Positions 14,901 through 39,515 of a stretch of DNA of 64,000 nt are shown in pieces. The DNA lies in NCBI GenBank assembly GCA_946409635.1, contig CAMJXD010000002.1, positions 1 to 64,000 of the forward strand, written 5' to 3'. The position numbers were made by a program, and so were the translations under genes. Source of the stretch: an uncultured Prevotellaceae bacterium. GTDB taxonomy: Bacteria > Bacteroidota > Bacteroidia > Bacteroidales > Muribaculaceae. Positions within the stretch are counted from its first letter, which is position 1, and each line of letters opens with the position of its first letter. The notes beneath the pieces were generated by a model. It made no database searches. It worked only from the letters and a program-made list of their open reading frames with translations, and had not been told where the DNA came from.

Positions 14901-14926
14901 ATATCAAAAAAAACTGATAAAACTGG

Positions 14927-15385: not shown

Positions 15386-15411
15386 AATCTCTGGTCTATA
15401 ATCATAAATCC

Positions 15412-15447: not shown

Positions 15448-15452
15448 ATTCT

Positions 15453-22374: not shown

Positions 22375-23430
22375 TTATCGTTCAAAGACGGCCACCAGCG
22401 GATAATGGTCGCTCTCGCCAGCCTTGACCCTGCGGCACGACAGCGGCTTGAGCTCCCCACGATACAGGATGTGGTCGATTTTGACATACAGATGATGAGC
22501 GTTAAAGGTGTAGGTGGGTCCGAATCCCGTGTCGGCCCAAGCATCGTGGAAGTCGTCGCCGCATACCGTTCGGTAGGTAAACGAGCCCGGCGTGTCGTTC
22601 ATGTCACCCATGACCAGCACGTCGGCCGGACTGTCGTTGAGCAAGTCACGCATCGCCCGGGCCTGGACCGCGTGAATGCGGAAACCGTCGTCGAGCTTAT
22701 GGGCAACAGAGCTGATGCGGCGTTTGCGGCCTGACGGCATGTTGATGGTCTCGATGACCTTGCTGTCGTTGGAGGTAAAACGCAGAGAGCTCAGGTGCAT
22801 GCTCACCACGCGCAGGTTGCCCCCAGGCGCCTCGACATCCCAAGCCTTGATGAAGTAATCGAGTGATTCCTTGGCCAGGGCCTGGGACTCGACCTCGGTA
22901 AAGGGATATTTTGACAGAATGCCCACGTCAAAGAAATGCTTCTTGCGGTAAGGGTACTTCTTGTACAGTTCCTTGAGCATGGGTTTCACCTTGTCGAGAT
23001 GTTCATAGGAGAAGTAGACAAGCCCTTCCTGGATGACCACGACATCGGCATCCTCGTCGAGGATGTATCGCATGGTCTTGCTGGGCGACTTGGTGCCGTC
23101 AAACCAATTGAACTCCTTCACGTTCATGGTGAGGACCTTGAGCTGCGTCTTGGCGGGGTTGGCGTCGGGGTGCAGCAGCGTGACAGGCGAGATCAGCCTC
23201 AATGTGGGCCATGACAAAAACAGGGCTCCAACAATGATGACTGCAGCCCGCCATTGCCGAAACAGCGCCAACAACGCTAAGACCACGACCGCCGCCACAG
23301 CCACGACCGGCAAAGCCAGCGTAGCCAACGCGGGCAACGACCACACCGACGGGTCAACACGGCCGCCATAGGCCGCAAACAATAAGACAAAGGCCACTAC
23401 AATGGCCAGAAGACGGCACAAAGACTTCAT
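22375..23430 (-). CDS. Membrane-anchored endonuclease/exonuclease/phosphatase family protein
   Basis: 351 residues from the ATG at 23430-23428 (MKSLCRLLAIVVAF...). The open frame extends into the upstream gene, but the Met here starts a sensible protein: two to three membrane helices (1-100), then an EEP domain with LTMNVKEFNWFDG, VVVIQEG, VSMHLSSLRF, VMGDMNDTPG and the final SDHYPLVAVF. These contain the metal-binding Asn/Glu/Asp and the catalytic His. The EEP fold hydrolyses phosphodiesters, of nucleic acids or of lipids. Start is only 5 bases after the acyltransferase stop. Confidence 0.87.
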   Translation of the reverse strand: MKSLCRLLAIVVAFVLLFAAYGGRVDPSVWSLPALATLALPVVAVAAVVVLALLALFRQWRAAVIIVGALFLSWPTLRLISPVTLLHPDANPAKTQLKVLTMNVKEFNWFDGTKSPSKTMRYILDEDADVVVIQEGLVYFSYEHLDKVKPMLKELYKKYPYRKKHFFDVGILSKYPFTEVESQALAKESLDYFIKAWDVEAPGGNLRVVSMHLSSLRFTSNDSKVIETINMPSGRKRRISSVAHKLDDGFRIHAVQARAMRDLLNDSPADVLVMGDMNDTPGSFTYRTVCGDDFHDAWADTGFGPTYTFNAHHLYVKIDHILYRGELKPLSCRRVKAGESDHYPLVAVFER

Positions 23431-23435
23431 ACAAT

Positions 23436-24455
23436 TTATCGGATTTTCCAACCAGGACCGAAGAAGGGTTGCTGGGCGGTGAACCTGGGAGCGTAAGTCT
23501 TGAGCAGCCAAATCAGCGGCCACTCGATGACCATGGTCATGGTGAAGACTATCAACGTGAGTGTGATGCCCGACTCCATGCCCTGTCGCAGCAGCAAGAA
23601 GCGGACGGGCTGCAAGATGAGCGGATGAGTTCCAAGGATGATGAGCGAGTAACGGCCATAGTGGCACATGACGGGAACGCGCGGCAGCGACTTACAGGCC
23701 CAGAAGAGTGCCAGGATAGCGACAAAAGGCACCAGGTATAGTTTCCAGTAGGCCGGATAGACCTGGAAATGCAGGTTCATGAACTCGTTGAGCCAATAGA
23801 CCGGCATCGCCACAGCGAGCAAGGCCAGGATGCCATATCGATCCCATCGCGAGGGTTCCAGGGCTCCAATACGTTTCATGCCCCAGCCCAACACAAAATA
23901 GGGCATCGCCACGAGCGATGTATCAAACATGAGCGGCAACTCGATGCGATGAACGCCCAGCTGATAGCCGATGACCGACAAGACTGCCGTCACTGCCAAC
24001 AACGCCCACAACGGCTTGATCCACCGGCGCATGGCATAGAAGAGGATGTTGACCCAAAAGAGGCTCCACAGGAACCACAACGGCGTGGTATTGGGCCAAT
24101 AGCGCAGATAGAACGGCTCGACAAGCTGAGTCAACGAGAGCTCGATAGGGTCGGCACCTAGTGCCAGACGGACAACAACCTCGACGCATCGGACACCAAA
24201 GGCGAAGACGACAAAGAAGACAAACGGCACGATGATGTTGTTGACCTTGCGCCGCGTGAAGTCGGCATAGCCGTCATAGAGCTTGAAAAAGATGCCCGAG
24301 ATGAAGTAATACATGGGCAGGCGGAAGGCCTGCAACGCATCATTGAGGTGGGGAGCCAGCAGATTGAAGAAGTCATGGCTGATGTGGTACATCACGATGA
24401 GCATGATGCACAGGCACTTCATAAAGTCGATGTACGGAATGCGCTCCTTGGCCAT
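23436..24455 (-). CDS. Acyltransferase 3 family membrane protein
   Basis: 339 residues, about ten membrane helices. The N-terminus YIDFMKCLCIMLIVMYHIS holds the family's catalytic His-like position, followed by FRLPMYYFISGIFFK. The family moves acetyl or similar groups from the cytoplasm onto exported sugars or lipids. Four such proteins occur in this locus; this one is the only one next to the carrier-protein gene cluster, 30 bases after the ACP at 24486, so it may take its acyl group from that ACP. Confidence 0.85.
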   Translation of the reverse strand: MAKERIPYIDFMKCLCIMLIVMYHISHDFFNLLAPHLNDALQAFRLPMYYFISGIFFKLYDGYADFTRRKVNNIIVPFVFFVVFAFGVRCVEVVVRLALGADPIELSLTQLVEPFYLRYWPNTTPLWFLWSLFWVNILFYAMRRWIKPLWALLAVTAVLSVIGYQLGVHRIELPLMFDTSLVAMPYFVLGWGMKRIGALEPSRWDRYGILALLAVAMPVYWLNEFMNLHFQVYPAYWKLYLVPFVAILALFWACKSLPRVPVMCHYGRYSLIILGTHPLILQPVRFLLLRQGMESGITLTLIVFTMTMVIEWPLIWLLKTYAPRFTAQQPFFGPGWKIR

Positions 24456-24485: not shown

Positions 24486-24710
24486 TCAGAGCTTGGACTC
24501 CAGCATGGCGATGACACGGGAGAAATCGGTCATCTCGGCTATTTCCTCGGGCTCCAACTCAATGTCGAAGGCATCTTCCAGCTCGGAAGCGAGCGTGAGA
24601 TGACGCAATGAGTCCCACTGGTCACAATTCTTTTGAGAAACATCGGTCGACACCTCGTCGATGCCGAAGGTCTCACGCATAATGTCTAACACACGGTCTT
24701 GCAGGTTCAT
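24486..24710 (-). CDS. Acyl carrier protein (partner of the FkbH-type protein)
   Basis: 74 residues, standard ACP length. The phosphopantetheine Ser lies in CDQWDSLRHL, the DSL form. Four helices are predicted with a negatively charged second helix (ELEDAFDIELEPEEIAEM). The start codon overlaps the FkbH-type gene's stop as ATGA, the tightest kind of translational coupling, so this ACP is very likely the carrier loaded by that protein. Confidence 0.9.
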   Translation of the reverse strand: MNLQDRVLDIMRETFGIDEVSTDVSQKNCDQWDSLRHLTLASELEDAFDIELEPEEIAEMTDFSRVIAMLESKL

Positions 24711-26299
24711 AATACACGGATATTATAACAATTCTTGATTTCAAAAACATGTTGCAGGGGCATCTCGTAACGGCGCGAGCCATCGTCGCCCGTGGCGACA
24801 CAGGTCATGCCCATGCGGTCATAGAAGTCGGCCGTCTGGGCATTCTTGGTTGTGGGGATATAGAGGGCCTGCACCCTGCGGTAGCCGTCGAGCCGCATCA
24901 GGTTGAGCACCGTCTTGAAAAAGGCCTCCTCGATGCCCTTGCCCAAGATGCGGCAACTGAGCAGCAGCGTATCGATAGCAACGGTCTCATCGTCGACTGG
25001 CCTCAGAAAGATGGTGCCCGTGATGCCGTTGTCACCAAAGCGGTCGCTCACGCTCATGCAATAGATGCGCCAGCCCCGGCCCACAAACTGAGTGACGTCG
25101 GCATCGGTATACCGGCGCGTGGTGAGGTTGAACTGGTTGGTCTTCTGAGTCATCTGGGCAATGCGCGGCACGTTGTGCTCGTCGGCCGGAATCACATCGA
25201 TGGCGATGTCCAGACTATAGAGATAGTCATCCAGGTCGGCAAAGCGAGCCTGCTCGGCACGGCGTTGCGCATTGGCCCGGTACTGCTCGGTCTTGTTGCG
25301 GTCCTCGGCAGTTACCGTGTAGACACGGAAGTACTTATCGACCAGCATCTTGAAGAACGGCATCAGCTGATATGGTTTATCAGGGAACTCAGGCACTTCG
25401 ACCTGTGGCAGTCGCTGGCGGATGAGTTCGCGCTCAGCGGGGTTGTCATCGATAAAGACCATGCTGTCGAGACCGATGTTGAGTTCGCGGGCCAGCTCAT
25501 CGATGTTGGTGGCCTTGTCCTGCCAGTTGATGCGCATGGCGGCAAAATGCTCCCGCTTGAGCACCACATGCGGGTTGTGTTCCCACACCTCGTCAACATC
25601 GCTCATGTTGTTCTTGCTGCAAATGGCCAGAATCACGCCATTGCGCGATAGCTGCAACAGGGCCCGCTGCCAATAGGAAAACGCCTTACCGGGATAATCG
25701 CCGCCAAGGTGGATACCGTCGACACCCTCTTCGCCCAGCACCCCGCCCCACAGCGTGTTATCGAGGTCCAGCACGAGGCATTTCTTGCGCTTGAGTTCCA
25801 ATTCCTCCTGGGCACGCTGCCACCACGCCTGGAAATCCTTGGCCAGCTTGGGATTGAGCAGCGTCTGCGACATGAGGTAGTATTTCCAGTTGACCAGCGT
25901 TGAGGCGTCATAACGTGCTGTAAAGTCGGCAAAATCCACCATCTTGACACAAGAATTCTCGCTTGCCAGCTGCGCAACATGGGCATTGAAGCCGTTGACA
26001 GCCCGTTCAACCGAAGTGTCGTCGCCAGTGAATCTTAACGGGAACAGGTTGACCAGCGAAAGGACGATAAACGGCTTAGCCTTGTCGACCGACTCGAGCA
26101 CGAGGTCGAGTTTATCGCCATAGGAGTCAATTTCTTGAGCCAGCTGAGCAGTGTCGGCATTGACAGGAACCTGGTAGAACCAGATGTAGCGGTCCACGTC
26201 ATCGGGCACCAGGCTGATATCGTCATAGCCCGAATAGGTCACGCCATCATAGCCCATAAAGGCCTCGACCGTCTGATTGCGGAAAACAAAAGTCTTCAT
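24707..26299 (-). CDS. HAD-IIIC/FkbH-type protein
   Basis: 530 residues from the ATG at 26299-26297 (MKTFVFRNQTVEAF). The central HAD domain has the Asp nucleophile in LDLDNTLWGGVLGE (Asp178 and Asp180) and FIDDNPAERELIRQ; after it comes a GNAT-like C-terminal part (QTADFYDRMGM). FkbH-type proteins load a glyceryl unit from 1,3-bisphosphoglycerate onto an ACP, as in tetronate, ansamitocin and tacrolimus pathways. An ACP follows with an ATGA overlap, fitting that reaction. Whether it really uses a glyceryl unit here is inference from family and neighbour. Confidence 0.87.
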   Translation of the reverse strand: MKTFVFRNQTVEAFMGYDGVTYSGYDDISLVPDDVDRYIWFYQVPVNADTAQLAQEIDSYGDKLDLVLESVDKAKPFIVLSLVNLFPLRFTGDDTSVERAVNGFNAHVAQLASENSCVKMVDFADFTARYDASTLVNWKYYLMSQTLLNPKLAKDFQAWWQRAQEELELKRKKCLVLDLDNTLWGGVLGEEGVDGIHLGGDYPGKAFSYWQRALLQLSRNGVILAICSKNNMSDVDEVWEHNPHVVLKREHFAAMRINWQDKATNIDELARELNIGLDSMVFIDDNPAERELIRQRLPQVEVPEFPDKPYQLMPFFKMLVDKYFRVYTVTAEDRNKTEQYRANAQRRAEQARFADLDDYLYSLDIAIDVIPADEHNVPRIAQMTQKTNQFNLTTRRYTDADVTQFVGRGWRIYCMSVSDRFGDNGITGTIFLRPVDDETVAIDTLLLSCRILGKGIEEAFFKTVLNLMRLDGYRRVQALYIPTTKNAQTADFYDRMGMTCVATGDDGSRRYEMPLQHVFEIKNCYNIRVL

Positions 26300-26309
26300 T
26301 TGTGTAGTT

Positions 26310-27323
26310 CTAATTCTTCTTGATCGCACGATAGAGCCAGCTGAGGCAACGCCACAATGCGGGACGCATCATGAGAAAGTGGATGAGCTTCCATTTCGAG
26401 CCATAGTAGTTGGCCTCGGGCCCCACACACGGGAAGGGAAACAGGCCGGCTTGCCTGATGCGCTGCAGCACCTCGTCGACACAGCCACAAGTGAGTGCCT
26501 TGGTCATGGCAAAGTAAAGATAGACATTCCTCACGCCGGCGACCGAGGGCGGAGCCTGGCGGCCCGCAGCCTGTTGCTCATAGTCACTTATCGTCGCATT
26601 GATCGACGCAGCTGCGTCGACCTGGCTAAGGATGCGGCGACGCAGGTGACCGGGGTCAGGATTGTGCATAGCACTGTCGCTGCGGTTGACGTAGCAATAG
26701 GCTAACGTGTCGTCGTGAGCAACACGCGGCGCATTGAGCAGGAAACGAGCGATGAGAGCTCCATCCTCGCACACGATGAGCGAGGAGTCGAATCGCCAGC
26801 CGTTATCGTTGATATAGTCACGGCGCAGCAAGAATCGCCACACATAGGGTGTCATGCAGTGTGTAGCCAGATAGTCGGCACCTGCCAGAACCGCCGTCGA
26901 CGCGTAATTGTCGTCACGGGCGACGGGCAGTGCATTGCCAGCCATGTCAACACTCTTGTAGTTGAACTGCAGGACATCAAGCCGCTCGTCGAGCGCACGC
27001 TGCAACAAGGGCGCCATCACCCCTGAGGGCAGATAGTCATCGCTGTCGACAAACTGCAGGTAAAGACCACGAGCATTGTCGATGGCCAGGTTGCGTGCGG
27101 CACTGACGCCGGCATTGGCCTGGGAGAGCAGCCTCACTTGAGGGTACTCACGAGCGAACGCCTCGACAAGAGCCCTGCCGCCGTCGGTGGAGCCGTCGTC
27201 GACAACGATTACCTCGTAATCGTCATCGCCAAGGCCCTGGTCGACAACAGATTGAAGACACCGCAGCACATAGGCCTCGGTGTTATAGAGCGGAATGACG
27301 TATGTCAGCAGGATGTTGTCCAT
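26310..27323 (-). CDS. Glycosyltransferase family 2
   Basis: 337 residues. A GT-A fold is shown by YVIPLYNTEAYVLRCLQSV, VVDDGSTDGG and the sugar-nucleotide metal motif FVDSDDYL, then YVWRFLLRRDYI and VCEDGALIARF in the acceptor half. Expected to add one sugar from a nucleotide donor to a lipid-linked oligosaccharide on the inner membrane face. Its ATG overlaps the VOC gene's stop (TGATG), so the two are co-translated. Confidence 0.87.
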   Translation of the reverse strand: MDNILLTYVIPLYNTEAYVLRCLQSVVDQGLGDDDYEVIVVDDGSTDGGRALVEAFAREYPQVRLLSQANAGVSAARNLAIDNARGLYLQFVDSDDYLPSGVMAPLLQRALDERLDVLQFNYKSVDMAGNALPVARDDNYASTAVLAGADYLATHCMTPYVWRFLLRRDYINDNGWRFDSSLIVCEDGALIARFLLNAPRVAHDDTLAYCYVNRSDSAMHNPDPGHLRRRILSQVDAAASINATISDYEQQAAGRQAPPSVAGVRNVYLYFAMTKALTCGCVDEVLQRIRQAGLFPFPCVGPEANYYGSKWKLIHFLMMRPALWRCLSWLYRAIKKN

Positions 27324-27730
27324 CAGCGCTCAGCTTCGACCAATTCAAGCAGTCCATTGTCCTTCTTGAACAGGAAAGCAACACGGCGGCCACCCATGGC
27401 ACAGGCGGGCACCGGGCCGCTCACCAGCAGAAAACGCTGCCCGCGCAACATGGCGACTGCAGCGTCGATGTCCTGCACCTCGTAGCACAGGTGGTAAGGT
27501 GTAACGCCAGCCGTGTCCAGCGTGCGAGCCACGGGGCTCACGTCGTCAAGCGGCTCGAGCAGTTCCAGCCGCGGTTGGCCAGGCCGTTCCAGAAAGCATA
27601 CCTTGACGTGCTGCATCGGGTCATCGGTAACAGGCGATGCCGTGTAGCCCATCGCCAGATAGAAGCCCACCGTCTTGTCGATACTGCGACAGGCTATGCC
27701 CACGTGGTGAAAACTGAGAGGAAGTTCCAT
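27323..27730 (-). CDS. VOC-fold protein (glyoxalase / methylmalonyl-CoA epimerase-like)
   Basis: 135 residues from the ATG at 27730-27728 (MELPLSFHHVGIACRS). Two beta-alpha-beta-beta-beta units are visible, the first with the metal His in HHVGIACRSIDKTVGFY, the second from PYHLCYEVQDIDAAV with the closing Glu in GLLELVEAE. The spacing is closest to methylmalonyl-CoA epimerase. In a locus with KAS III enzymes it may act on a 2-substituted malonyl- or acyl-thioester, but the substrate cannot be told from sequence. It starts 4 bases after the KAS III gene. Confidence 0.75.
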   Translation of the reverse strand: MELPLSFHHVGIACRSIDKTVGFYLAMGYTASPVTDDPMQHVKVCFLERPGQPRLELLEPLDDVSPVARTLDTAGVTPYHLCYEVQDIDAAVAMLRGQRFLLVSGPVPACAMGGRRVAFLFKKDNGLLELVEAER

Positions 27731-27734
27731 CGGT

Positions 27735-28784
27735 TCAATACTCGATGACAGGCGACACGGCACAATCACGCATGTTCATGACCGCCGAGCACCAGCTCAA
27801 TCCGGCGCCAAAGGCACTCATAATCACCGTATTGTCACCATTGAGGCGGCCACACAGCTCACTGGCGATGGTCAGAGGGACCGATGCGCTGCTCGTGTTG
27901 CCATACTTGTGTATACAATAGGGCACCCGCTCGGGGGCTATCTTGAGTTTCTTGACAAAGAAGTCCATCATAAAGCGGTTGGCCTGATGAAAGACCATGT
28001 AGTCCACCTGGTCGATGGTCATGCCCGTCTCCTTGAGCAGTTGTTTGATGCTCTTGGGCACCTTACTGATAGCAAAGTTGAAGACGTCCATGCCGTCCAT
28101 GAAGACCTCGAGGTCGCTGCGGATGTTGCCCTCCTCCTGCTCACGCTCGATGCACGACTCGGGCGTGATGGGATTACGCATGCCAGCGTGAATCTTCAGG
28201 GCCCGCTCGCCACTGCCGTCGGTATAGAGCAGGAAAGTGGACGGGCCAAAGTCGCCCTTCTCGACAAGAGTCGCCGTGCCGGCGTCGCCATAGAGCGGCC
28301 AGTCGACCTTGTCGCGACGGTTGACAATCTTGGAGAAAGTCTCGCCGTCGAGCAGCAAGACACGGTTCACGCCCTCCATTTGGGCATAGGCAAACGCCGT
28401 GGTCAAGGCAAAGAGATAACCCGAGCAACCCAGCGAGATGTCGAAGCACATCGTCTCGCGAGGCAGTCCGAGCCGTTGCTGCATGATGCACGATGTGGCA
28501 GGGATGCGGTAGTCGGCCGTCTGGCTCATGAACAGGAGCACGTCGATGCTTGCGGGGTCGATGTCGTTGTCGTCCATGAGCTGGCGCGCGGCCTTGTAAC
28601 AGAGGTCGCTGGCCGTGACATCGTCGTCGGCAATGCGCCGCTGCTCGATGCCGATGTTGTTGATGGTCTTTTCTATTTCTTCCTCGGGGATGAGATAGTC
28701 CAAGTCCTTGTTATAGACTATGTTGCGAGGCACACATGCGCTCATCGCCTTAATTCCCACCCCATGAAAAGTCAGTTTAGCCAT
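27735..28784 (-). CDS. 3-oxoacyl-ACP synthase III-like enzyme, copy A
   Basis: 349 residues, FabH-like length. The catalytic triad is complete: Cys120 in SLGCSGYLFAL, His266 in VFHQAN and Asn296 in KYGNTSSASVP. KAS III enzymes either condense an acyl-CoA with malonyl-ACP or, in some biosynthetic loci, transfer an acyl group to another carrier or to a hydroxyl/amino acceptor. It is not the housekeeping FabH, since it lies in a glycan locus next to ACP (28892) and VOC genes, and it is a paralogue of the copy at 32861. Confidence 0.88.
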   Translation of the reverse strand: MAKLTFHGVGIKAMSACVPRNIVYNKDLDYLIPEEEIEKTINNIGIEQRRIADDDVTASDLCYKAARQLMDDNDIDPASIDVLLFMSQTADYRIPATSCIMQQRLGLPRETMCFDISLGCSGYLFALTTAFAYAQMEGVNRVLLLDGETFSKIVNRRDKVDWPLYGDAGTATLVEKGDFGPSTFLLYTDGSGERALKIHAGMRNPITPESCIEREQEEGNIRSDLEVFMDGMDVFNFAISKVPKSIKQLLKETGMTIDQVDYMVFHQANRFMMDFFVKKLKIAPERVPYCIHKYGNTSSASVPLTIASELCGRLNGDNTVIMSAFGAGLSWCSAVMNMRDCAVSPVIEY

Positions 28785-28891
28785 ATTCTTTACTGGCAGG
28801 TCATTGTTCTTAGGTCAATTTACATATACAACAATAACATGCCACTAGCGACAGCAATGGCAAGTCATCATTGGCACACGCAATCAAGCTA

Positions 28892-29131
28892 TCATTCGAT
28901 CTCGACTCTTTCTTTTACGATATTATAGAGGTCCTCGACCGTGTTACTGTTGCGGATATCGTCTCCACGGAATTCGACGTCGTACTCCTCGTCGATCATG
29001 GCAATGACCGACAAGGCCACGAGTGACGACCATTCTTCAAGATTCTTAAATCTAGTGGTAGCCTGTATAGTGTCGGGGTCTGTTTCGTCAAACAGATCCG
29101 CAAAATTCTCTATGAATTCATCTAATCTCAT
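28892..29131 (-). CDS. Acyl carrier protein, SSL type
   Basis: 79 residues from the ATG at 29131-29129; a GTG one codon earlier is also open. The attachment Ser is in EEWSSLVALSVIAM, where the usual Asp before it is Ser. It is a close paralogue of the ACP at 35641 (both run from an F/IENFA start to E/DEYDV and IxNSxTxxDL). It precedes KAS III copy A by 107 bases, so those two may work as a pair. Confidence 0.85.
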   Translation of the reverse strand: MRLDEFIENFADLFDETDPDTIQATTRFKNLEEWSSLVALSVIAMIDEEYDVEFRGDDIRNSNTVEDLYNIVKERVEIE

Positions 29132-29289
29132 CACGTATATTTGATAACGTGAAAATGCTAAAGATATTTTCTACAAAGCGCAAAATTAAATAAAAAATCT
29201 AAAATTGGCTCTCTGTTGCATGTTATTTGTCGCTGAAGGACTATTTTTTAATGGCAAAATGCTGCAAATGGCCAAAAAGGGTAGGTTTC
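29132..29289 (-). promoter_or_regulatory. Gap with a possible internal promoter
   Basis: AT-rich 158-base gap. TAATTTTG occurs on the minus strand at 29188-29181, about 50 bases before the ACP; no good TTTG box is found 19-21 bases upstream, so this is a weak candidate. Confidence 0.35.
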
Positions 29290-29931
29290 TCACAGGTCGA
29301 ACCTCTTGGCCGGGACACCCAGATAGGTTGAATGGGACTTGGGTTGTGTCATGAGCACGCTGTTAGCCCCCAGTGTGATGCCATCGCCGATGGTCATGCC
29401 CTGCAGCACCACGCTGGCCACGCCCAGCAGGTTGTTGTTGCCGATGGTGACCCCGCCTGACAGATGTGCCGCCGGCATGAGACCGTTGAAATCCCCGATG
29501 ACATTGTCATGCCCCACCACCACGTGGTCGTTGAACAGGTTGAAGCTGCCGATGACCACGTCGCACGAGATCATGCAACCATACTGGATGATGTTACCCT
29601 GACCCATTGTAACCGTCTGAGGGTCGACAAGGAACAGAGAAGGGTCGATGAGGTTTGGGAAAGAGATGTGAGGATTAGTAATCTCGTTGCGCAGGCGACG
29701 CACCGCCTTGTTCTCGTTGATGGCGATGGCTACGGCAAGCGGCTGGTCGACCTTGAGCAGGTCGTCCATATTGCCCAACACCTGGCCATAGACCGAGACC
29801 TGAGTCCCGGCGGGCTTGGCGTCGTCATAGAATCCCACCAGCTGCCAGTCACCGCCAGCAGCATTGATGCGCCGCAACAGGCAAGCCACTTCCTTGCCAA
29901 ATCCGCCTGCACCGTATATTGCGATATTCAT
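29290..29931 (-). CDS. NeuD-type sugar O/N-acyltransferase
   Basis: 213 residues from the ATG at 29931-29929 (MNIAIYGAGGFGKE). N-terminal half: a PglD-type nucleotide-sugar-binding fold (GAGGFGKEVACLLRRI, WQLVGFYDD). C-terminal half: left-handed beta-helix hexapeptide repeats (MGQGNIIQYGCMIS, VIGSFNLFNDHVVVGHDN, GNNNLLGVASVVLQGMTIG) that bind acetyl-CoA or another acyl donor. NeuD/PglD enzymes acetylate the amino group of UDP-4-amino sugars or an OH. The DegT aminotransferase gene lies directly upstream (45 bases), the expected partner: amination, then N-acylation. A very close copy is fused to an ATP-grasp at 36815. Confidence 0.87.
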   Translation of the reverse strand: MNIAIYGAGGFGKEVACLLRRINAAGGDWQLVGFYDDAKPAGTQVSVYGQVLGNMDDLLKVDQPLAVAIAINENKAVRRLRNEITNPHISFPNLIDPSLFLVDPQTVTMGQGNIIQYGCMISCDVVIGSFNLFNDHVVVGHDNVIGDFNGLMPAAHLSGGVTIGNNNLLGVASVVLQGMTIGDGITLGANSVLMTQPKSHSTYLGVPAKRFDL

Positions 29932-29976
29932 ATTACTCCCGGTTTGATTCATGTGATAAACAAGAGGCCGCCTTGA

Positions 29977-31119
29977 CTAGTGCTTGCAGCAGGCGATGAT
30001 TTCGGTGGCCACTCGCTCGACATCGTCGTCGCTGACCCAGGGTCCGCTGGGCAGGCACAGTCCATGAGCGAACAAGTCCTCGCTGACACCGTTGACATAG
30101 GCGGGAGCATCCTTGAACACAGGCTGGGTGTGCATGGGTTTCCACAGCGGTCTCGACTCGATGTTGCAGGATTCGAGATGCTGGCGCACGGTCTCATAGT
30201 CGGTTCCCGTCTTGACAGGATCGATGAGGATGGTGTTGAGCCAGTAATTGCTGTCAGAGCGCTCGTCGGCGTTGGTGTGGACCGTGATGCCGTCAATGCC
30301 GGCCAGCAGTTCCACATATCGGTCACACAGATGCCTGTGATGGGCCAGATGCTCATCGAGGACAAACATCTGTCCGCGTCCGATACCGGCACAGATGTTG
30401 CTCATGCGGTAGTTGTAGCCTATCTCCTTGTGCAGGTAATAGGGCATGGGCTCACGGGACTGGGTTGCATAGAACATGACCTTCTTCTTGGTCTCGTCGT
30501 CGGGGCAGATGAGTGCTCCGCCACCGCTGGTGGTAATCATCTTGTTGCCATTGAAGCTCATGATGCCAAAGTCGCCGAACGTGCCACATAACTGGCCACG
30601 ATAGCGTGAGCCGAAAGCCTCGGCCGAGTCCTCTACGACAGGGATCTCGTAACGACGGGCCACCTCCATGATGTCGTCGATCTTGCCGGGCATACCATAG
30701 AGGTAGACCGGGATGATGGCCTTGGGCTTGCGGCCGGTCTTGGCGATGCGGTCCTTGATGGCATCCTCGAGCAGGTTGGGGTCGATGTTCCATGTATCGC
30801 GTTCGCTGTCGACAAACACCGGCACACCACCCTGATAGGTAATGGGGTTGGCACTGGCCGAGAAAGTCATCGACTGGCAGATGACCTCGTCGTCGCGCCC
30901 GACGCCCAACTTGACCAGGGCGAGATGAATCGCAGCTGTTCCCGAGCTCAGTACGACGACACGCTTGTCCTCGCCACAGAGCTTCTCGAGATCCTCTTCA
31001 AAGGCGTTGACATTAGGTCCCAGGGGAACGACCCAATTGGTGTCGAAAGCCTCCTGGATATATTTCATCTCATGGCCACTCATGTGGGCGAGACAAAGTA
31101 AAATCTTGTTGTTTGCCAT
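29977..31119 (-). CDS. DegT/DnrJ/EryC1/StrS family sugar aminotransferase
   Basis: 380 residues. A PLP enzyme that replaces a keto group of a nucleotide sugar with an amino group (glutamate as amino donor). The PLP Lys is Lys193 in SFNGNKMITTSGGG; VVEDSAEAFGSRYRG has the Asp that holds the pyridine nitrogen and SSGTAAIHLAL the phosphate loop. The substrate-binding ends NYRMSNICAGIGRGQ and ESRPLWKPMHTQPVF are present. Sequence is closest in feel to PglE-type UDP-4-amino-4,6-dideoxy sugar enzymes. The product would feed the NeuD-type gene downstream. Confidence 0.9.
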   Translation of the reverse strand: MANNKILLCLAHMSGHEMKYIQEAFDTNWVVPLGPNVNAFEEDLEKLCGEDKRVVVLSSGTAAIHLALVKLGVGRDDEVICQSMTFSASANPITYQGGVPVFVDSERDTWNIDPNLLEDAIKDRIAKTGRKPKAIIPVYLYGMPGKIDDIMEVARRYEIPVVEDSAEAFGSRYRGQLCGTFGDFGIMSFNGNKMITTSGGGALICPDDETKKKVMFYATQSREPMPYYLHKEIGYNYRMSNICAGIGRGQMFVLDEHLAHHRHLCDRYVELLAGIDGITVHTNADERSDSNYWLNTILIDPVKTGTDYETVRQHLESCNIESRPLWKPMHTQPVFKDAPAYVNGVSEDLFAHGLCLPSGPWVSDDDVERVATEIIACCKH

Positions 31120-31142
31120 AATTCTATGATAATTTTGTTGTT

Positions 31143-31724
31143 TTACAATTCGGTTGGGGCCGCATGTCCCGGATAGACCAAACGATGCTCGGCCAGCTGC
31201 AGGATGCGTGCTTCGCTCTGATGGGCCAAATCCTTGTCGGAGTGCGGGATATTGGTCACCGTCTTTACGCCTGGGATGTGGCTGTCGCCGGTAAAGACCG
31301 ACTCACCGATGATCCAAGTCACACACGAGGGGCTGTGGCCCGGGGTCTCAACGGCGCTGGCAGTGGTGTCGCCATACAAGGGCAGCATCTGGCCGTCGGC
31401 AACGATGTCCACATTCTCGGGGTACAACAGAGTGAAAGGGTCACCATAGTACCTGGAGAAATTGAGTTTGTCGCTCAACAGCGCTTCCCTGCCCGCAGCA
31501 TTGGTATAGACCCGTGCGTGGGGAAATATCGAGAGCAACTGGTTCAAGCCGTAGATGTGGTCAAAGTGGGCGTGGGTGAGCAGCACGCCGCACAGGCGGC
31601 CCTTGATGAGCGGGAGGATGCTGTCAACGTCGCCACAGTCGATGAGCCATGAACGCTCATCGTCGCCCACGACATAACTGCAGGAGTTAAACACCGAATT
31701 CACCACTCTTGTCACCTCACTCAT
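31143..31724 (-). CDS. Metallo-beta-lactamase fold hydrolase
   Basis: 193 residues from the ATG at 31724-31722 (MSEVTRVVNSVFNSCS...); the longer frame overlaps the neighbouring gene. It has the complete MBL metal motif THAHFDHIYG, a second His in ETPGHSPSC, the Asp in FTGDSHIPG and the final YPGHAAPT. Of glyoxalase II-like size. In this setting it could hydrolyse a thioester (e.g. acyl-ACP or acyl-glutathione-like), but it could be a general hydrolase. It follows the ATP-grasp gene by 19 bases and precedes the aminotransferase. Confidence 0.82.
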   Translation of the reverse strand: MSEVTRVVNSVFNSCSYVVGDDERSWLIDCGDVDSILPLIKGRLCGVLLTHAHFDHIYGLNQLLSIFPHARVYTNAAGREALLSDKLNFSRYYGDPFTLLYPENVDIVADGQMLPLYGDTTASAVETPGHSPSCVTWIIGESVFTGDSHIPGVKTVTNIPHSDKDLAHQSEARILQLAEHRLVYPGHAAPTEL

Positions 31725-31743
31725 CACCTGACCAGTTATCTTG

Positions 31744-32844
31744 TCACTGCATGTGCAGGTAGAAACGCTTGTCCTTATCAAAAGTCTTCACATAAGTCTG
31801 GACGCGGCTGCACTCAACGCGGCGGGCGCGCTCCATGACCTCGTCCAGGTTGTCGCCAAACATTGGTCCGGCCTGAATCTGCGGTCCCTCGATACTGGGT
31901 TGCAGGTTGAACTCGATGAACATGGGTTCGCCGTCGGGCGTAACCGTCATGTCCCAGCCCACCAGGTCGAAGTAGGGCAAGCGCCGATGCATGTCAAGCA
32001 GGGTTTTCACCACCTTGTCGAAGTGGGGAATCACCAAGTTGTCGACACCGGTTTCCTGGGCCAGCGAGAAGACCTGCATGCTCTTGAAACGATAGGCTCT
32101 GTCGTCGACCGATCCGTCGGCGGCGACGCGGCACATGGCGCCGCCCTGCGAGACGTTATCCTTGATGGCACCCTTGTTGCCGTAGCGGAAAAACGAGTAA
32201 GGATACAGGAACTCGTAAGTGCCGTCAAGCCTGCGGTAAGAGAACAGGCGCATTGAGTTGAGCGACGTAGGGTTGACGCGCTGGATATCGGGGTGCTGTT
32301 TGACCTTCTCCTGGACGATGAAGTTGTGGCTGTATTGCTTGAGCAGGGCGACCAGCTGGTCGGTACCCAAGTCCTGAATCTGGGCCACGCCGTCGCCGTT
32401 GCAGGTGTCGACAGTGGGCTTGATGATCATCTCGCCCGTGAACTGCTGAATCAGGCTCACGGCATCGGTCATCGAGATTTCTTCACCGTCGTGAGTGAAG
32501 ATGCCATTCATATTCTTGACCAAGCTGAGCGGCTGTTTTACACCCGGGAACAGCTCGGTGTAGATGTTCTTGTCAAGGTAGGCATTGATGAAGTCAAAGC
32601 GGTTCAAGGCTGGCAGGACAAAGAAATAATAGACGTCCATGGAGATGTAGCGGTCGCTGTGGATGCCGTTCAGCCGTGAATAGTAGTCGGCAAACATCAT
32701 CGACACCTTGAAATCGCGCTGCTGGAAATAGGGCGAGAGTTCCTTCTTGTGGGCCTTGTAGTCAAAGTCGTCGGGCATGACGTGGTCCTTGAAATACCAG
32801 TCACCCCAGTAGAACTCCTTGTTAGTATTAAGAAATTGAGCCAT
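31744..32844 (-). CDS. Sugar-transfer-associated ATP-grasp protein
   Basis: 366 residues. The ATP-grasp core runs from about residue 120: GEMIIKPTVDTCNGDGVAQI, NFIVQEKVKQHPDI, SMRLFSYRR and the metal-binding EFNLQPSIEG with PYFDLVGWDMTV. The family (sometimes called ATPgrasp_ST) is found in surface-glycan loci and activates a carboxylate as acyl phosphate for joining to an amine or hydroxyl. Here it stands between KAS III copy B and the MBL gene. It would explain ligation of an amino acid or other acid to the glycan, but the substrates are unknown. Confidence 0.8.
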   Translation of the reverse strand: MAQFLNTNKEFYWGDWYFKDHVMPDDFDYKAHKKELSPYFQQRDFKVSMMFADYYSRLNGIHSDRYISMDVYYFFVLPALNRFDFINAYLDKNIYTELFPGVKQPLSLVKNMNGIFTHDGEEISMTDAVSLIQQFTGEMIIKPTVDTCNGDGVAQIQDLGTDQLVALLKQYSHNFIVQEKVKQHPDIQRVNPTSLNSMRLFSYRRLDGTYEFLYPYSFFRYGNKGAIKDNVSQGGAMCRVAADGSVDDRAYRFKSMQVFSLAQETGVDNLVIPHFDKVVKTLLDMHRRLPYFDLVGWDMTVTPDGEPMFIEFNLQPSIEGPQIQAGPMFGDNLDEVMERARRVECSRVQTYVKTFDKDKRFYLHMQ

Positions 32845-32860
32845 AGGTCTTCATCCAATA

Positions 32861-33922
32861 TTAATAATCTATCACATCAAGCACTTGCACACCGCCTGCA
32901 TAGAACTCCATGCTGGCCCATGCCAATCCCACGCCAAAGCCGCATGCCAAGCAATGCTTGACGTCGCCCGAGAGTTGCTCGCGGCATCGTGTCACCATCG
33001 TCAGGGGAATGGAGGCGCTGGTGACGTTGCCATACTCCTCCAGGCAATAGGGGGTCTTGTCGGCAGGTATCTTCACCGCCTTGCGTATCTTCTCGTCGAT
33101 AAACTTGTTGGCCTGGTGGAGCAACAGCAAGTCGACGGTGTCCACATCGATGTCAAATGTCTCAATCAGCTCCTTGAGCGAACGAGGCGGTTGCTTGATG
33201 GCAAAGCCGAACACGTCCATGCCATTGACAATCATGTCGACGCCGCGACGATAGACGCCCGGTGACACTTCCTTCTCCTCAAGGGCCTCGGCTGTGACAG
33301 GCTGGCGGATGCCGCCATAGGGTGCCCACACGGCATCAAAGCCGCTACCGTCGACACCGTACATGAAGTGCATGGGTTGCTCCCAAGCGGGATCATACTC
33401 AAGAGCCGTTGCCGTGGCTGCGTCGCCAAAGAGTGGACGCACAGCCGTGTCGCGCGGGTTGCGGTTGCGGGTGTTGGTCTCGGCAGCTACCAGAATGGCG
33501 CGCTTGAGTGTGCCGTGTGACATGAGCGAGGACACGATGCTCATACCATAGACCCAACCCGAGCAGCCAAACGGCAGGTCAAACACGCAGCAGTCGTTGC
33601 GCAGCTTCAGGCGGTCCTGGAGGATGCAGGCCGTCTGTGGAGCGATGTAGTCGCGCGAGGTGCACACATAGGCCAGGATATCGACCTGTTCAGCCCCCCA
33701 CCCCATCTTGTCGAGCAGGGCCTCGACGGCCTTGACAGTGAGGTCTGACGCGGTGGTATTGTCATCCACCTTGTGGTGGCGCTCGATGCCGGTCGAGGCG
33801 ATGACCTTGAGGGCATCGTTCTCGTCTTTGTAGATGGGCAGTGAGCGGTTATCCTCGACTGTCGAGGGTACACAGGCGCTCATGCCTGAAATGCGCACAT
33901 GATTGATTGTTAGCTGTGACAT
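32861..33922 (-). CDS. 3-oxoacyl-ACP synthase III-like enzyme, copy B
   Basis: 353 residues. Catalytic triad Cys120 (LPFGCSGWVYG), His269 (LLHQANKF) and Asn299 (EYGNVTSASIP). It shares the N-terminal pattern I-x-G/A-MSACVPS/R and overall layout with copy A (27735) and is clearly a paralogue. Its ATG follows the acyl ligase stop by one base; ligase, two ACPs and this enzyme form one unit. A role in extending or transferring the acyl group loaded by the ligase is likely. Confidence 0.88.
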   Translation of the reverse strand: MSQLTINHVRISGMSACVPSTVEDNRSLPIYKDENDALKVIASTGIERHHKVDDNTTASDLTVKAVEALLDKMGWGAEQVDILAYVCTSRDYIAPQTACILQDRLKLRNDCCVFDLPFGCSGWVYGMSIVSSLMSHGTLKRAILVAAETNTRNRNPRDTAVRPLFGDAATATALEYDPAWEQPMHFMYGVDGSGFDAVWAPYGGIRQPVTAEALEEKEVSPGVYRRGVDMIVNGMDVFGFAIKQPPRSLKELIETFDIDVDTVDLLLLHQANKFIDEKIRKAVKIPADKTPYCLEEYGNVTSASIPLTMVTRCREQLSGDVKHCLACGFGVGLAWASMEFYAGGVQVLDVIDY

Positions 33923-33923
33923 A

Positions 33924-35393
33924 TCATGATTTGAGTTTTAAACGTTGTATCTTGCCCGACGGCGTGCGAGGTATGCTGTCAATCCACTCCCAAAGCACTG
34001 GAATCTCGTGGTTGGGAAGTAACTGAACAAGCCGTTGCTTGATTTCGTCGAGGCCCATCGTCGTGCCGCCGCGGCAGATGAAAGCCTTGGGCACCTCGCC
34101 CAACACGCCGTTGGGATCGGGCACCGCAACGCACGCGCAGTCACTCACGCCCAGCGAGCAGATGGCATCCTCGATGGTGGCTGGGCTCACTTTCTCACCG
34201 CCGACGTTGATGAGTTCCTTGCGGCGCCCGGTGAGGTAGAAGTTACCGCTGGCATCGCGGTGTCCCCAATCGCCGGTACGAAACCACTCGTCGCCATAGA
34301 ATGCATCGGCATTGTCCTTCTCAAGAAAATAGGACCGGGTGACCATATTGCCCTTGACACAGATTTCGCCATCCATGCCATCATCAACCGGGTGCCCGCT
34401 GTCATCGAGGACGACGGCCTGTACCATGGCCGATGCGGGGCGGCCTATTGTATGCAGGTTGGCAGCATCAGTGTGAAATTCGCTGAACATGGCCCGCGAA
34501 GCCTCGGTCAGGCCATAGTGCATGCATAATCGGGTGTGAGGAAACAGTTCCATGAGCAGTCGCTTGTCCTCGACAGGCAACGCAGCGCTACCGATTTCAA
34601 TGAAACGCAACTGGTCGGCAAACACACCGATGCGCTTACCGCTCAAGCGTTTAATGTACTGCCACACGGCGGGAACCATGCCGAAACCTGTCACCCTCTC
34701 GGCCGTCATCACACTGAACAACGACTTGAGATTGGCAAAGTTGCTCACCATCACCATCGTGGCTCCAGCCAGGAGGGAACAGCGTAAACGTCCCAGTCCG
34801 AACGAGTGACTCAGCGGCAAGGCCAGCGCCTCGACGTCGTCAGGACCGTTGCCGATAAAGGAGTTGGTATTGGAGGCCGATGCGGCGATGTTGGCATGCG
34901 AGAGGCATACGCCCTTAGGAGCTGCCGTGGTCCCCGTGGTGAACATGACGTCGGCCACTGCATCTGGAGTGATGCTGTGCGCAGGCAGGCCGGCAGCCAT
35001 ATCGTGGCTGGTGGCCAGGGCACTGAACGGTACACAACGGACACGGTCGGCAACAGTCGAGTCGCCAAACAAAACGGCGGGATGCACCACATCAATGATG
35101 TAGGCCAAACGATCGGCCGGAGCGGCCGAATCGACCACCACATTGATGATGCCCGACTGATGGGCAGCAAAATAGAGGTAAACAAATTCCAGCTCCTTCT
35201 GGGCCGACAGGATGATGTGGTCACCAGGCTTGAGCCCCAACGAGTGCAGGAAGGCGGCAGCCTGCTCAATGGCAGCTACCAGCTGAGAATAAGAAATGCG
35301 TCTGTCACCCGCTACAAGAGCAGTCTTGTCGGGGGTGGCGGCCGCATGACCTGTGATTGCCTGCAAGAGCGGGCTGTGAGCGACGTTAAGCAT
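33924..35393 (-). CDS. AMP-dependent acyl ligase (ANL superfamily)
   Basis: 489 residues from the ATG at 35393-35391 (MLNVAHSPLLQAITG). Full ANL plan: P-loop-like FTTGTTAAPKGVCLSHAN, the A5 YGLTEAS, WFRTGDWGHRD, LTGRRKELINVGGEKVSPATIED and the C-terminal catalytic Lys in PRTPSGKIQRLKL. It activates a carboxylic acid with ATP and passes it to the thiol of CoA or an ACP. The end of the ACP gene upstream overlaps its start by 8 bases, so an acyl-ACP ligase role is very likely. The acid chosen is not visible. Confidence 0.9.
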   Translation of the reverse strand: MLNVAHSPLLQAITGHAAATPDKTALVAGDRRISYSQLVAAIEQAAAFLHSLGLKPGDHIILSAQKELEFVYLYFAAHQSGIINVVVDSAAPADRLAYIIDVVHPAVLFGDSTVADRVRCVPFSALATSHDMAAGLPAHSITPDAVADVMFTTGTTAAPKGVCLSHANIAASASNTNSFIGNGPDDVEALALPLSHSFGLGRLRCSLLAGATMVMVSNFANLKSLFSVMTAERVTGFGMVPAVWQYIKRLSGKRIGVFADQLRFIEIGSAALPVEDKRLLMELFPHTRLCMHYGLTEASRAMFSEFHTDAANLHTIGRPASAMVQAVVLDDSGHPVDDGMDGEICVKGNMVTRSYFLEKDNADAFYGDEWFRTGDWGHRDASGNFYLTGRRKELINVGGEKVSPATIEDAICSLGVSDCACVAVPDPNGVLGEVPKAFICRGGTTMGLDEIKQRLVQLLPNHEIPVLWEWIDSIPRTPSGKIQRLKLKS

Positions 35394-35616
35394 CGGCGAG
35401 CTGGTTGACCTCATCAACGATAGACTTGACCGAGGTGAGGTCAAACAGGTCCTCGAGCGGGAATTCGATATTCAGTTCCTGTTCTATCGTGCTGATTATC
35501 GCCAGATTACCCACCGAGTCCCACTGTGGGATATCGCCCGATGACAAGTCGTCGGTAATCAGGTCGAGGTCCACATTCAGGACCCTGGCAATGATCTGTT
35601 TAACCTGTGATTCCAT
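35386..35616 (-). CDS. Acyl carrier protein, DSV type
   Basis: 76 residues. Attachment Ser in PQWDSVGNLAIISTI; acidic helix II (EQELNIEFPLEDLF). The end overlaps the ligase start by 8 bases, coupling their translation. Together with the ACP at 35641, 24 bases upstream, this makes two adjacent carrier proteins of different type before one ligase. Confidence 0.88.
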   Translation of the reverse strand: MESQVKQIIARVLNVDLDLITDDLSSGDIPQWDSVGNLAIISTIEQELNIEFPLEDLFDLTSVKSIVDEVNQLADA

Positions 35617-35640
35617 GCAGGGGAACGACGAGGCTAAAGG

Positions 35641-35874
35641 TTAACGACGGTGCTTAGCTACAACATCAAACAAGTCCTGGATCGTGTCGGAATTGGTGAT
35701 GTCTTTACCCTTGATGATGACGTCATACTCGTCATCGACCATGGCGATGATGGACAACGCTGCCAGCGATGACCACTCGTCGAGATCCTTGAACCGGGTC
35801 TCGGCGGTGAAAGCCTCGGGCTCAGTCTCATCGAACTGCGCAGCGAAATTCTCAATAAATTCCTGTATATTCAT
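35641..35874 (-). CDS. Acyl carrier protein, SSL type (paralogue)
   Basis: 77 residues. Attachment Ser in DEWSSLAALSIIAMV, without the usual Asp. Nearly a duplicate of the ACP at 28892 (same FAAQFDETEPEA/FADLFDETDPDT pattern and DVxxxGxDIxNS end). It is the first gene after the promoter at 35939-35969 and so starts the carrier-protein subunit of the locus. Confidence 0.87.
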   Translation of the reverse strand: MNIQEFIENFAAQFDETEPEAFTAETRFKDLDEWSSLAALSIIAMVDDEYDVIIKGKDITNSDTIQDLFDVVAKHRR

Positions 35875-35938
35875 AGTTGTGATATAATCGCATATATAGA
35901 AGTCATCTGTCGATGACTGATACTATTGTTTCAAGCGG

Positions 35939-35969
35939 CAAAAGTAAGTCTATTTTTCAAATTTACAAA
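35939..35969 (-). promoter_or_regulatory. Internal promoter of the ACP-ligase-KAS III unit
   Basis: TTTG (35969-35966), 19 bases, TACTTTTG (35946-35939) on the minus strand, a full match to the Bacteroidales consensus. Transcription would start near 35932, 58 bases before the ACP ATG. It lies inside the long co-directional run, showing the lower half can be expressed on its own. Confidence 0.75.
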
Positions 35970-35984
35970 GGAATTGGCCAAAAA

Positions 35985-36749
35985 CTAGATAGAAAAGCCG
36001 CCATCGATGACCAAATCATGGCCTGTGAGCCAGCTTGAAGCGTCGCTGAGCAGGTAGATGGCGCCGTTGGCGATGTCGGCCGGCTGTCCGTATCTCCCTA
36101 AAGGATAACGCTTGGCGTCCTCGGCCAGCTGCTCCTCGGTAATGGTGCCTCGATGGATCAGCGGCGTGTCGACCATGCCGGGGCAGATGCTGTTGACGCG
36201 CACCTTGCGGGAAGCATACTCGCGTGCCGCATACTTCATCACGGAGTTCAAGGCTGCCTTGGAAGCGCCATACACGCCGTTGCCAGGCATGAAACTGTGG
36301 GTGCCGCCAATCGAGGCAATCAGCACAACCGAGGCCCCTTTCTGCAGCACTTTTTTCTTGTACATCAACCGCATCAACTCGACGGGGGCAAAGAAATTGA
36401 TATCAAACATCTCGTTGAACTTCTCGCGTGAGCCAAACTGCAAGGGCAGAGTCATCGAGTTGCCCGCACACAGCACAGCTCCATCGAGCGGCGGCAACGA
36501 TTTGAGCAGGCTGTCTACATCCTGAGGCTGAGTCAGGTCGGCCAAGGCCATCACATGGCTCTCACCGTCGGCTACGGGAGGGAGCAGGCTCATCGTTTCG
36601 GCCAATCGGCCCTGATCACGGGCCGTAGCCACGACACGAGCACCCATGCGCGAGCAGGCAAGCGCCGTCTCTCGCCCGATGCCCGACGAAGCGCCCGTGA
36701 CGAGTATGGTTTTTCCCGAAAGAGAAAACGGATTGTACATCGTCTCCAT
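35985..36749 (-). CDS. Short-chain dehydrogenase/reductase (possible 3-ketoacyl-ACP or sugar reductase)
   Basis: 254 residues. Rossmann motif TGASSGIG (18-25), the NAG-type motif in LCAGNS, and the catalytic Ser146, Tyr160 and Lys164 (YGASK). The C-terminal SSWLTGHDLVIDGG is that of the classical SDR family, as in FabG. Being before the ACP/ligase/KAS III unit it may reduce a beta-ketoacyl-ACP made by the KAS III enzymes; a sugar dehydrogenase is the main alternative. Met4 is an alternative start. It ends 15 bases before the internal promoter. Confidence 0.87.
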   Translation of the reverse strand: METMYNPFSLSGKTILVTGASSGIGRETALACSRMGARVVATARDQGRLAETMSLLPPVADGESHVMALADLTQPQDVDSLLKSLPPLDGAVLCAGNSMTLPLQFGSREKFNEMFDINFFAPVELMRLMYKKKVLQKGASVVLIASIGGTHSFMPGNGVYGASKAALNSVMKYAAREYASRKVRVNSICPGMVDTPLIHRGTITEEQLAEDAKRYPLGRYGQPADIANGAIYLLSDASSWLTGHDLVIDGGFSI

Positions 36750-38530: not shown

Positions 38531-38553
38531 AATCCTTATATCGCTTTTTCTTG

Positions 38554-39486: not shown

Positions 39487-39515
39487 AAATCGGAAAAAGT
39501 ATCTGTTCAACTCTA

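Follow-up and report, generated by a model that had tools for sequence, protein, structure and literature searches.

The window analysed here, bases 1-64000 of contig 2 of an uncultured Prevotellaceae bacterium (a 2.57 Mb assembly of 134 contigs, estimated to be 83.6% complete), carries a glycan locus that spans 22.4 to about 59.6 kb and is encoded on the minus strand. At the low-coordinate end of this locus lies a block of genes for acyl carrier proteins (ACPs), type III 3-ketoacyl-ACP synthases (KAS III) and partner enzymes. This acyl block very probably makes acyl groups on ACPs for the amino sugars of a surface glycan. We lean, by a small measure, to a reading in which two parallel lines, one primed by an FkbH protein and the other by an ANL ligase, end at NeuD-type acyltransferases and serve one surface glycan. 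The chemical steps and products proposed below are predictions built on the genes, their conserved residues, their linkage and the presence or absence of whole modules.

Family matches located on a single strand every member of the gene set given in the preliminary description of this DNA: four ACPs, two KAS III, ANL, FkbH, SDR, VOC, MBL, ATP-grasp, DegT and NeuD. These genes had been described as nearly all within a few bases of each other. Using probable starts, 12 of the 15 junctions between the ACP at 24486 and the ATP-grasp/NeuD gene are overlaps or gaps of at most 65 bases; the other three have gaps of 107, 155 and 110 bases. The direct coupling of FkbH to an ACP was borne out by the 4-base overlap with ACPd. 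The order SDR-ACP-ACP-ANL-KAS-ATPgrasp-MBL-DegT-NeuD-ACP-KAS-VOC-GT-FkbH-ACP-AT3-EEP (the long form) is kept in 10 of 24 other genomes of the genus, once without MBL and once split over two contigs, and the gene order is therefore more than chance. It also occurs in 21 named records, one without MBL and one without AT3; eight of these are the same contigs as among the ten congeners, and a 22nd record picked as long form (L090) was left out, its ligase-like match lying on the other strand. The features on which the argument turns are the following:

24486..24710, minus strand: ACPd, an ACP of WDSL type, starter carrier paired with FkbH (PF00550; serine in 62 of 62 relatives)
24707..26329, start probably 26293, minus strand: FkbH, predicted glyceryl loader (1,3-bisphosphoglycerate to ACPd; TIGR01686, 296.6 bits, cut-off 146.65)
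27323..27769, start probably 27721, minus strand: VOC, a methylmalonyl-CoA-epimerase-like metal enzyme (TIGR03081, 71.6 bits, below the cut-off of 114.95)
27735..28784, minus strand: KASb, KAS III of the FkbH-associated clade (family match, catalytic triad, tree)
28892..29134, minus strand: ACPc, WSSL type, probable extender/product carrier of the FkbH-primed line (PF00550; 57% identical to ACPa)
29290..29952, minus strand: NeuD2, N-acyltransferase of PglD/VioB type (TIGR03570, 158.1 bits, just under the cut-off of 160.8)
29977..31119, minus strand: DegT sugar aminotransferase (PF01041, 312.6 bits)
31744..32844, minus strand: ATPgrasp_ST, a ligase of the predicted ANL-primed line (PF14397, 97.8 bits)
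32861..33922, minus strand: KASa, KAS III of the predicted ANL-primed line (family match, catalytic triad)
33924..35444, start probably 35396, minus strand: ANL ligase, predicted loader of a carboxylic acid onto ACPb (PF00501, 238.3 bits)
35386..35616, minus strand: ACPb, WDSV type, starter carrier paired with the ANL ligase (PF00550; DSV in 21 of 21 relatives)
35641..35874, minus strand: ACPa, WSSL type, probable extender/product carrier of the ANL-primed line (PF00550, 20.7 bits, just under the cut-off of 20.8)
35985..36749, minus strand: SDR, 3-ketoacyl reductase probably common to both lines (PF13561, 178.5 bits)
36815..38590, minus strand: PylC-like ATP-grasp domain fused to the N-acyltransferase NeuD1 (family matches)

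Carrier proteins and ketoacyl synthases

The two WSSL carriers, ACPa and ACPc, are each only 16-25% identical to ACPb and ACPd, which share 22% with each other. PF00550 scored over its cut-off in three of the four ACPs, and the phosphopantetheine-serine motif was visible in all relatives but one fragment. ACPb, whose WDSV is kept in 21 of 21 relatives, adjoins the ANL ligase, and ACPd adjoins FkbH. From ACP types and adjacency, each KAS III appears to be served by one loader, one starter ACP of its own and one WSSL ACP, giving the putative sets ANL-ACPb-KASa-ACPa and FkbH-ACPd-KASb-ACPc. The earlier proposal that ligase and FkbH load separate ACPs thus holds for the arrangement, each loader lying beside its own carrier; the loading itself is a prediction.

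Both KAS III had been called complete, and the Cys/His/Asn triad is indeed intact in KASa and KASb, as in all 130 aligned rows (64/64 KASb, 33/33 KASa, 28/28 other cluster KAS and 5/5 FabH). CerJ-like KAS III acyltransferases have an altered catalytic triad; with the Asn kept in every KASb and KASa row, acyl transfer without condensation was judged less likely on these catalytic residues. Trp32 and Arg36 of E. coli FabH are, we assume, CoA contacts, with Trp32 stacking on CoA. At the Trp32 position all five FabH have W and all 64 KASb have K, R or F; Arg36 is kept in 5/5 FabH and 0/64 KASb. Loss of Trp32 in KASb fits, weakly, a starter borne by an ACP.

The partner enzymes also keep their expected residues. 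In FkbH, D176 and D178 (HAD DxDxT) and C447 (the SCR cysteine, presumably catalytic) are kept in at least 95% of 62 rows, and the Asn-Ser-Tyr-Lys set of the SDR (N118, S146, Y160, K164) in at least 95% of 79. NeuD2 aligns with the PglD and VioB chains of the PDB and keeps H148 in at least 95% of 43 rows. The ANL ligase contains a PLSHSFGL stretch, which we take to be a usual feature of ligases whose acid substrates lack an alpha-amino group. In VOC, H6, E53, H77 and E126 are kept in at least 95% of 52 rows, at what we take to be the metal-ligand positions of epimerase structures. Its best PDB matches are deposited as lactoylglutathione lyase or glyoxalase, followed by methylmalonyl-CoA epimerases; with its TIGR03081 score below the cut-off, it was not accepted as a true methylmalonyl-CoA epimerase. 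VOC genes also lie near FkbH where no KAS is present (L041, L047). For the window's VOC we infer an epimerase or ketol isomerase acting beside a ketone.

Linkage of FkbH to one KAS III clade and minimal operons

A KASb profile scan of named genomes gave at least 172 relatives, and the counts below refer to the best 80 loci. Where KASb identity is at least 52% (65 loci), 61 loci have FkbH downstream of KASb at a distance of no more than 4.5 kb; where it is at most 50% (15 loci), one has FkbH near the KAS. Among the exceptions, L085 and L111 end near a contig end, and in L082 KASb is directly followed by an ACPd-like gene, with VOC-FkbH-ACPd-DegT on another contig of the same genome. The latter stretch (L141, G395:C2:34001-48000, 4538-7549) and the KASb-ACPd pair of L082 together form a split version of the FkbH-primed set. 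In a KAS tree of 105 rows, left after removal of 25 near copies, all 51 FkbH-linked KASb fell into one clade of 56 rows with support 98/88, and the 14-row sister clade contained no FkbH-linked row. As an order-wide control, one KAS relative 38-46% identical to KASb was taken from each of 40 of 70 genomes with a match: FkbH was nearby in 0/40, an ACP of the ACPa/c type in 38/40 and an SDR in 36/40, some stretches being cut by contig ends. The ANL tally of this control was set aside, several ANL queries having matched the opposite strand.

The KASb type is rare across the order, since in an even draw of 295 of its genomes only the window's own genome and G147 have a relative above 46% identity. 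Of 101 genomes of the genus, counting the window's own, 38 have FkbH at 69% identity or more; eight others have it at 58-62%, one of them as a partial match. The closest named relatives among the matches listed are uncultured ruminant-gut records titled Muribaculaceae, Prevotellaceae or Bacteroidales bacterium, and several titles name the rumen, omasum, abomasum or duodenum. The pair FkbH and KASb extends further, to additional Bacteroidales and, by record title, to Opitutales, Opitutia or Verrucomicrobia, Treponema and Sedimentibacter; the Sedimentibacter record is a contig of 4.3 kb and could be mis-binned. FkbH and KASb searches of a plasmid collection found no member of the KASb clade (best 40.7%) but turned up the Parabacteroides locus described below.

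The two sets can occur apart. In its minimal form (L080 and L088) the FkbH set is a nine-gene operon, PGT-NeuD-ACP-SDR-KASb-VOC-FkbH-ACPd-DegT. In 15 of the 80 loci, both ACPs come with a single NeuD and a single SDR, and KASa and ANL are both absent, contig ends limiting the stretch surveyed; L083, with three NeuD-like genes, was not counted among them. Since these 15 loci offer a single NeuD-type acyltransferase, both ACPs probably feed one acyl group, and the simplest reading is that glyceryl-ACPd would be the starter of KASb. In L083, a close relative (KASb 84%), ACPa, ACPb, ANL, KASa and ATPgrasp_ST are absent together as one block, and the aligned parts of SDR and MBL lie about 45 bases apart. 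The converse case is L147, a plasmid record of Parabacteroides distasonis (NZ_OY725812.1) that has NeuD-ACP(WSSL)-ACP(WDSV)-ANL-KAS-SDR beside a flippase and EpsG, with no FkbH in the 14 kb examined; its plan is that of the ANL-primed set, and its KAS is 42% identical to KASa. L083 and L147 together point to exchangeable starter cassettes and to two parallel lines in the window. Another arrangement, L026, places ACP-SDR-KASb-FkbH-ACPd next to a protein with an acyltransferase domain of malonyl transacylase type (PF00698).

Variant gene sets were observed in other loci as well. L109 carries a 646-residue GHMP kinase/nucleotidyl transferase fusion (10068-12005) between KASb and FkbH. In L041 (G290:C2, 7612-11178), FkbH-VOC-MaoC-SDR-ACP without KAS III forms another FkbH-started acyl set. 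L043 (G269:C28:111301-131300, 8852-14728) has FkbH, an ACP, MBOAT and a 332-residue protein without a Pfam match, then DegT; the set resembles Dlt and might, outside the cell, transfer a glyceroyl ester.

Predicted acyl lines and competing explanations

In the FkbH-primed line, FkbH would charge ACPd with a glyceryl group, in keeping with the role of FkbH as a glyceryl-ACP loader in the part of the literature that treats glycerate utilisation (PMC7489565). KASb would take this glyceryl group as starter and condense it with malonyl on ACPc, and the SDR would reduce the resulting 3-oxo group; VOC would probably set the configuration of the ketone's neighbouring carbon. NeuD would then move the product to the 4-amino group of a nucleotide sugar made by DegT. 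The KAS triad and the malonyl-transacylase-type protein of L026 fit decarboxylative condensation. The genome has a candidate 4,6-dehydratase for the 4-keto sugar (PF02719, contig C57, 698-residue open frame). The predicted acyl group is 3,4,5-trihydroxypentanoyl (+132.04 Da), an identity held with less assurance than the two lines themselves. In the other line, the ANL ligase would charge ACPb with an acid, KASa would extend this acid on ACPa, the same SDR would reduce it and the other NeuD would use the product; ATPgrasp_ST is assigned to this line.

On this view the ACP-KAS-SDR line is common, and the part that seems to be exchanged is the starter cassette (none, ANL plus ACP, or FkbH plus ACP). 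More tentatively, and at somewhat under even chances, the same logic would operate in ruminant Bacteroidales and some other phyla, with acetyl-CoA, an ANL-loaded acid or an FkbH-loaded glyceryl unit priming a NeuD-ended line; jointly with this reading, the FkbH version would yield an amide of a polyhydroxyacyl group, either 3,4,5-trihydroxypentanoyl or, in loci with two KAS, a longer one. If this is true, the acyl groups of surface glycans could be read from the genome by a simple rule, the starter cassette, and FkbH/KAS III chemistry would extend from antibiotics to glycans. There would also be an acyl amide with the mass of a pentose residue: the masses being equal, 3,4,5-trihydroxypentanoyl could be mistaken for a pentose, which is what mass spectrometry alone would read. 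The minimal nine-gene operon would make the pathway directly testable in vitro. With a close FkbH in 38 of the 101 genus genomes, ruminant gut Bacteroidales may often bear the decoration.

Several observations weigh against two such lines. A single SDR must serve both, and L083 keeps both NeuDs despite its loss of the ANL-primed set, contradicting a strict rule of one NeuD per line. The L147 ligase is only 26% identical to the window ANL. L110, the fourth exception to the FkbH linkage, belongs to the KASb clade, yet no FkbH match was found in its genome. Of the 65 loci with KASb identity of at least 52%, 14 lack VOC, as does L026. A malonyl-transacylase-type gene like that of L026 was found in 0/80 KASb loci, so malonyl-ACP would have to come from a housekeeping enzyme. 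Because Trp32 is lost too in 33/33 KASa and at least 26/28 other cluster KAS, its loss is weak evidence and not specific to an FkbH starter. Outside the genus, KASb accompanied only one of 20 fetched FkbH loci, where FkbH therefore mostly does something else.

The remaining objection comes from Campylobacter jejuni and leads to the main rival, direct N-glyceroylation, which we consider unlikely, though the least so of the alternatives: the glyceroyl group on ACPd would be put straight onto the amino sugar, as may happen with the dimethylglyceroyl group of C. jejuni flagellin, and KASb, SDR and ACPc would make a separate 3-hydroxyacyl group from acetyl-CoA. The C. jejuni flagellin locus presumably also has fabH2 and acp genes. 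As far as the published accounts cover it, the locus of strain NCTC 11168 resembles the window in pairing fkbH with a putative epimerase gene (cj1301-cj1302), and its flagellin bears a simple glyceroyl amide, methylated and attached to an amino sugar, N5-(2,3-di-O-methylglyceroyl)-Pse, which differs from the product predicted here in having no chain extension (PMC7099621, PMC3068675). The role of fkbH there is correlational, from a comparison of strains: those with an fkbH pseudogene (12664) or without the 'epimerase' cj1301 (12661) lack the dimethylglyceroyl group, and other genes differ too. The 19 of 20 fetched loci that have FkbH in a glycan-type setting without KASb favour direct transfer as well. 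What speaks for extension by KASb instead is the single NeuD-type acyltransferase for both ACPs in 15 loci, and the KASb clade itself, which tracks FkbH.

The preliminary description had KAS III joining the two starters. In such a scheme KASa and KASb would combine the glyceryl unit with the acid loaded by ANL to give a single acyl chain, an outcome we regard as improbable. The two sets are co-conserved in order in the 10 congeners and in the 21 named records, which overlap in 8 contigs, and a single SDR accompanies them. Head-to-head fusion of two ACP-bound units by a KAS III has been proposed for celluxanthene, whose cluster, in the portion of the report that describes it, has an AMP-dependent synthetase and an ACP (PMC12144888). 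Each half nevertheless exists alone, the FkbH half in L083 and the 15 one-NeuD loci and the ANL half in L147, so that two parallel lines fit better than joining; two NeuDs are also retained.

A tetronate decoration, for which KASb would form C-C and C-O bonds between glyceryl-ACP and a 3-ketoacyl thioester, seems a distant prospect, despite the tetronate analogy drawn earlier. FkbH, a stand-alone ACP and a FabH-like enzyme do form the core of the glycerate-utilisation operon (for example mad7/mad8/mad16), which is set in a secondary-metabolite polyketide synthase context with no NeuD or DegT named in the operon's description (PMC7489565). Among the block's identified families there is no polyketide synthase and no counterpart of that operon's Agg4-type acyltransferase/Agg5-type dehydratase pair, no search aimed at Agg4 or Agg5 having been made, and SDR and NeuD are linked instead. 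Least probable of all is oxidation of glyceryl-ACP to hydroxymalonyl-ACP as an extender for KASb: FkbH and an ACP begin the methoxymalonyl-ACP pathway in the portion of the literature that treats it (PMC7489565), which needs two dedicated dehydrogenases as well as an O-methyltransferase, whereas the block has one FabG-type SDR, of a kind equally common beside KAS without FkbH (36/40), and no methyltransferase family among its matches. Both routes were judged less likely on gene content.

Known systems and neighbouring genes

ACP/KAS/reductase/PglD lines that N-acylate 4-amino sugars are already published as a general kind, and the statement that such sets have no worked-out product needs amending. 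Flavobacterium psychrophilum wfpB-wfpG is tied to 3,5-dihydroxyhexanoyl on Qui2NAc4N of the O-antigen, the structure by NMR and the gene roles by prediction; it shares with the window a PglC-type transferase, a PglD-type acyltransferase, an ACP, two ketoacyl-ACP synthases and a reductase, and differs in that the part of the report on these genes names no FkbH, ANL ligase, VOC or starter ACP (PMC6519341). The vioA/vioB/vioS/vioR/acp genes of Pseudomonas syringae are tied to 3-hydroxybutanoyl viosamine on flagellin, and vioA, vioB and vioR mutants lose the modified viosamine by mass spectrometry. As portrayed in that report, this island likewise has an aminotransferase, KAS III, reductase, ACP and VioB-type acyltransferase; unlike the window, its seven genes include one KAS, one ACP and no dedicated starter loader (PMC3927599). 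Group II polar flagellin islands of Aeromonas have an ACP, a 3-oxoacyl-ACP reductase and an AMP-dependent synthetase, so a ligase, ACP and reductase in a glycan locus are already described, with luxE and luxC in place of KAS III in the section of the source devoted to these islands (PMC7874193). This comparative context agrees with the earlier idea that NeuD passes an ACP-made acyl group to an amino sugar. What looks new is that one line is primed by FkbH and that two lines are paired. In the open-licence literature we found no paper linking FkbH with KAS III and surface polysaccharide, none on FkbH with O-antigen and, judged by the titles among the matches listed, no report of trihydroxypentanoyl as an acyl group of bacterial glycans.

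The glycan locus begins at about 59.6 kb with LicD, a pyruvyl transferase, glycosyltransferases, three acyltransferase-3 proteins and EpsG, followed by a PF02397 phosphoglycosyl transferase, a PLP enzyme, the ATP-grasp/NeuD fusion and then the acyl block; the upstream glycosyltransferases differ between the same-genus loci fetched. The preliminary description had not listed the glycosyltransferase at 26310-27323, the NeuD/ATP-grasp fusion at 36815-38590, the phosphoglycosyl transferase at 39516-40127 or the AT3 and EEP tail. The further features are:

22375..23667, minus strand: EEP, endonuclease/exonuclease/phosphatase-family protein, conserved tail of the long form (PF03372)
23436..24455, minus strand: AT3, acyltransferase 3, conserved tail of the long form (PF01757)
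26310..27323, minus strand: GT2b, family 2 glycosyltransferase inside the block, in this place only in the long form (family match)
31143..31781, start probably 31724, minus strand: MBL-fold hydrolase (PF00753; absent in one congener)
39516..40127, minus strand: phosphoglycosyl transferase, PF02397 sugar transferase family (199.5 bits)

The phosphoglycosyl transferase adjoins NeuD in the minimal operons L080 and L088 and probably starts the glycan. AT3 at 23436, earlier suggested as an alternative transferase for the finished acyl group, is less likely in that role: it goes with the long form, none was seen beside compact forms, and it probably stands outside the acyl lines. MBL is missing in L022/L070 (the same contig) and may hydrolyse stalled acyl-ACP as a proofreading thioesterase. 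DegT scored 361.9 bits against TIGR04181, below the cut-off of 420, and was not assigned as the LegC aminotransferase of legionaminic acid.

ATPgrasp_ST has no solved relative by sequence, the search giving one unrelated match (E 0.099). Its low-confidence AlphaFold model (mean pLDDT 69, residues 1-61 below 50) resembles many ATP-grasp ligases, with TM 0.28-0.41 by query length among the 50 matches listed; the model names the fold, not the substrate. L032 (G021:C1:118001-138000, 7638-16389) carries eight tandem ATPgrasp_ST-like genes, one of them Pfam-checked at 123.8 bits. SDR and KAS III genes, accompanied by ANL or ACP, lie on either side of this array; the tandem genes could build a repeated amide or ester chain.

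In most same-genus loci fetched only the NeuD half of the 36815-38590 fusion aligns well, and its ATP-grasp half and the PLP enzyme are mostly absent or replaced. The latter (38557-39519) is of the D-cysteine desulfhydrase / D-cysteate sulfo-lyase kind and is found in few relatives, for example L015 and L132. A PADLOC scan of two glycan-locus genes gave no match. Farther upstream, an APH/choline-kinase-like protein (54061-54942) adjoins an HAD phosphatase and, with LicD (58647-59567), hints at a phosphorylated substituent.

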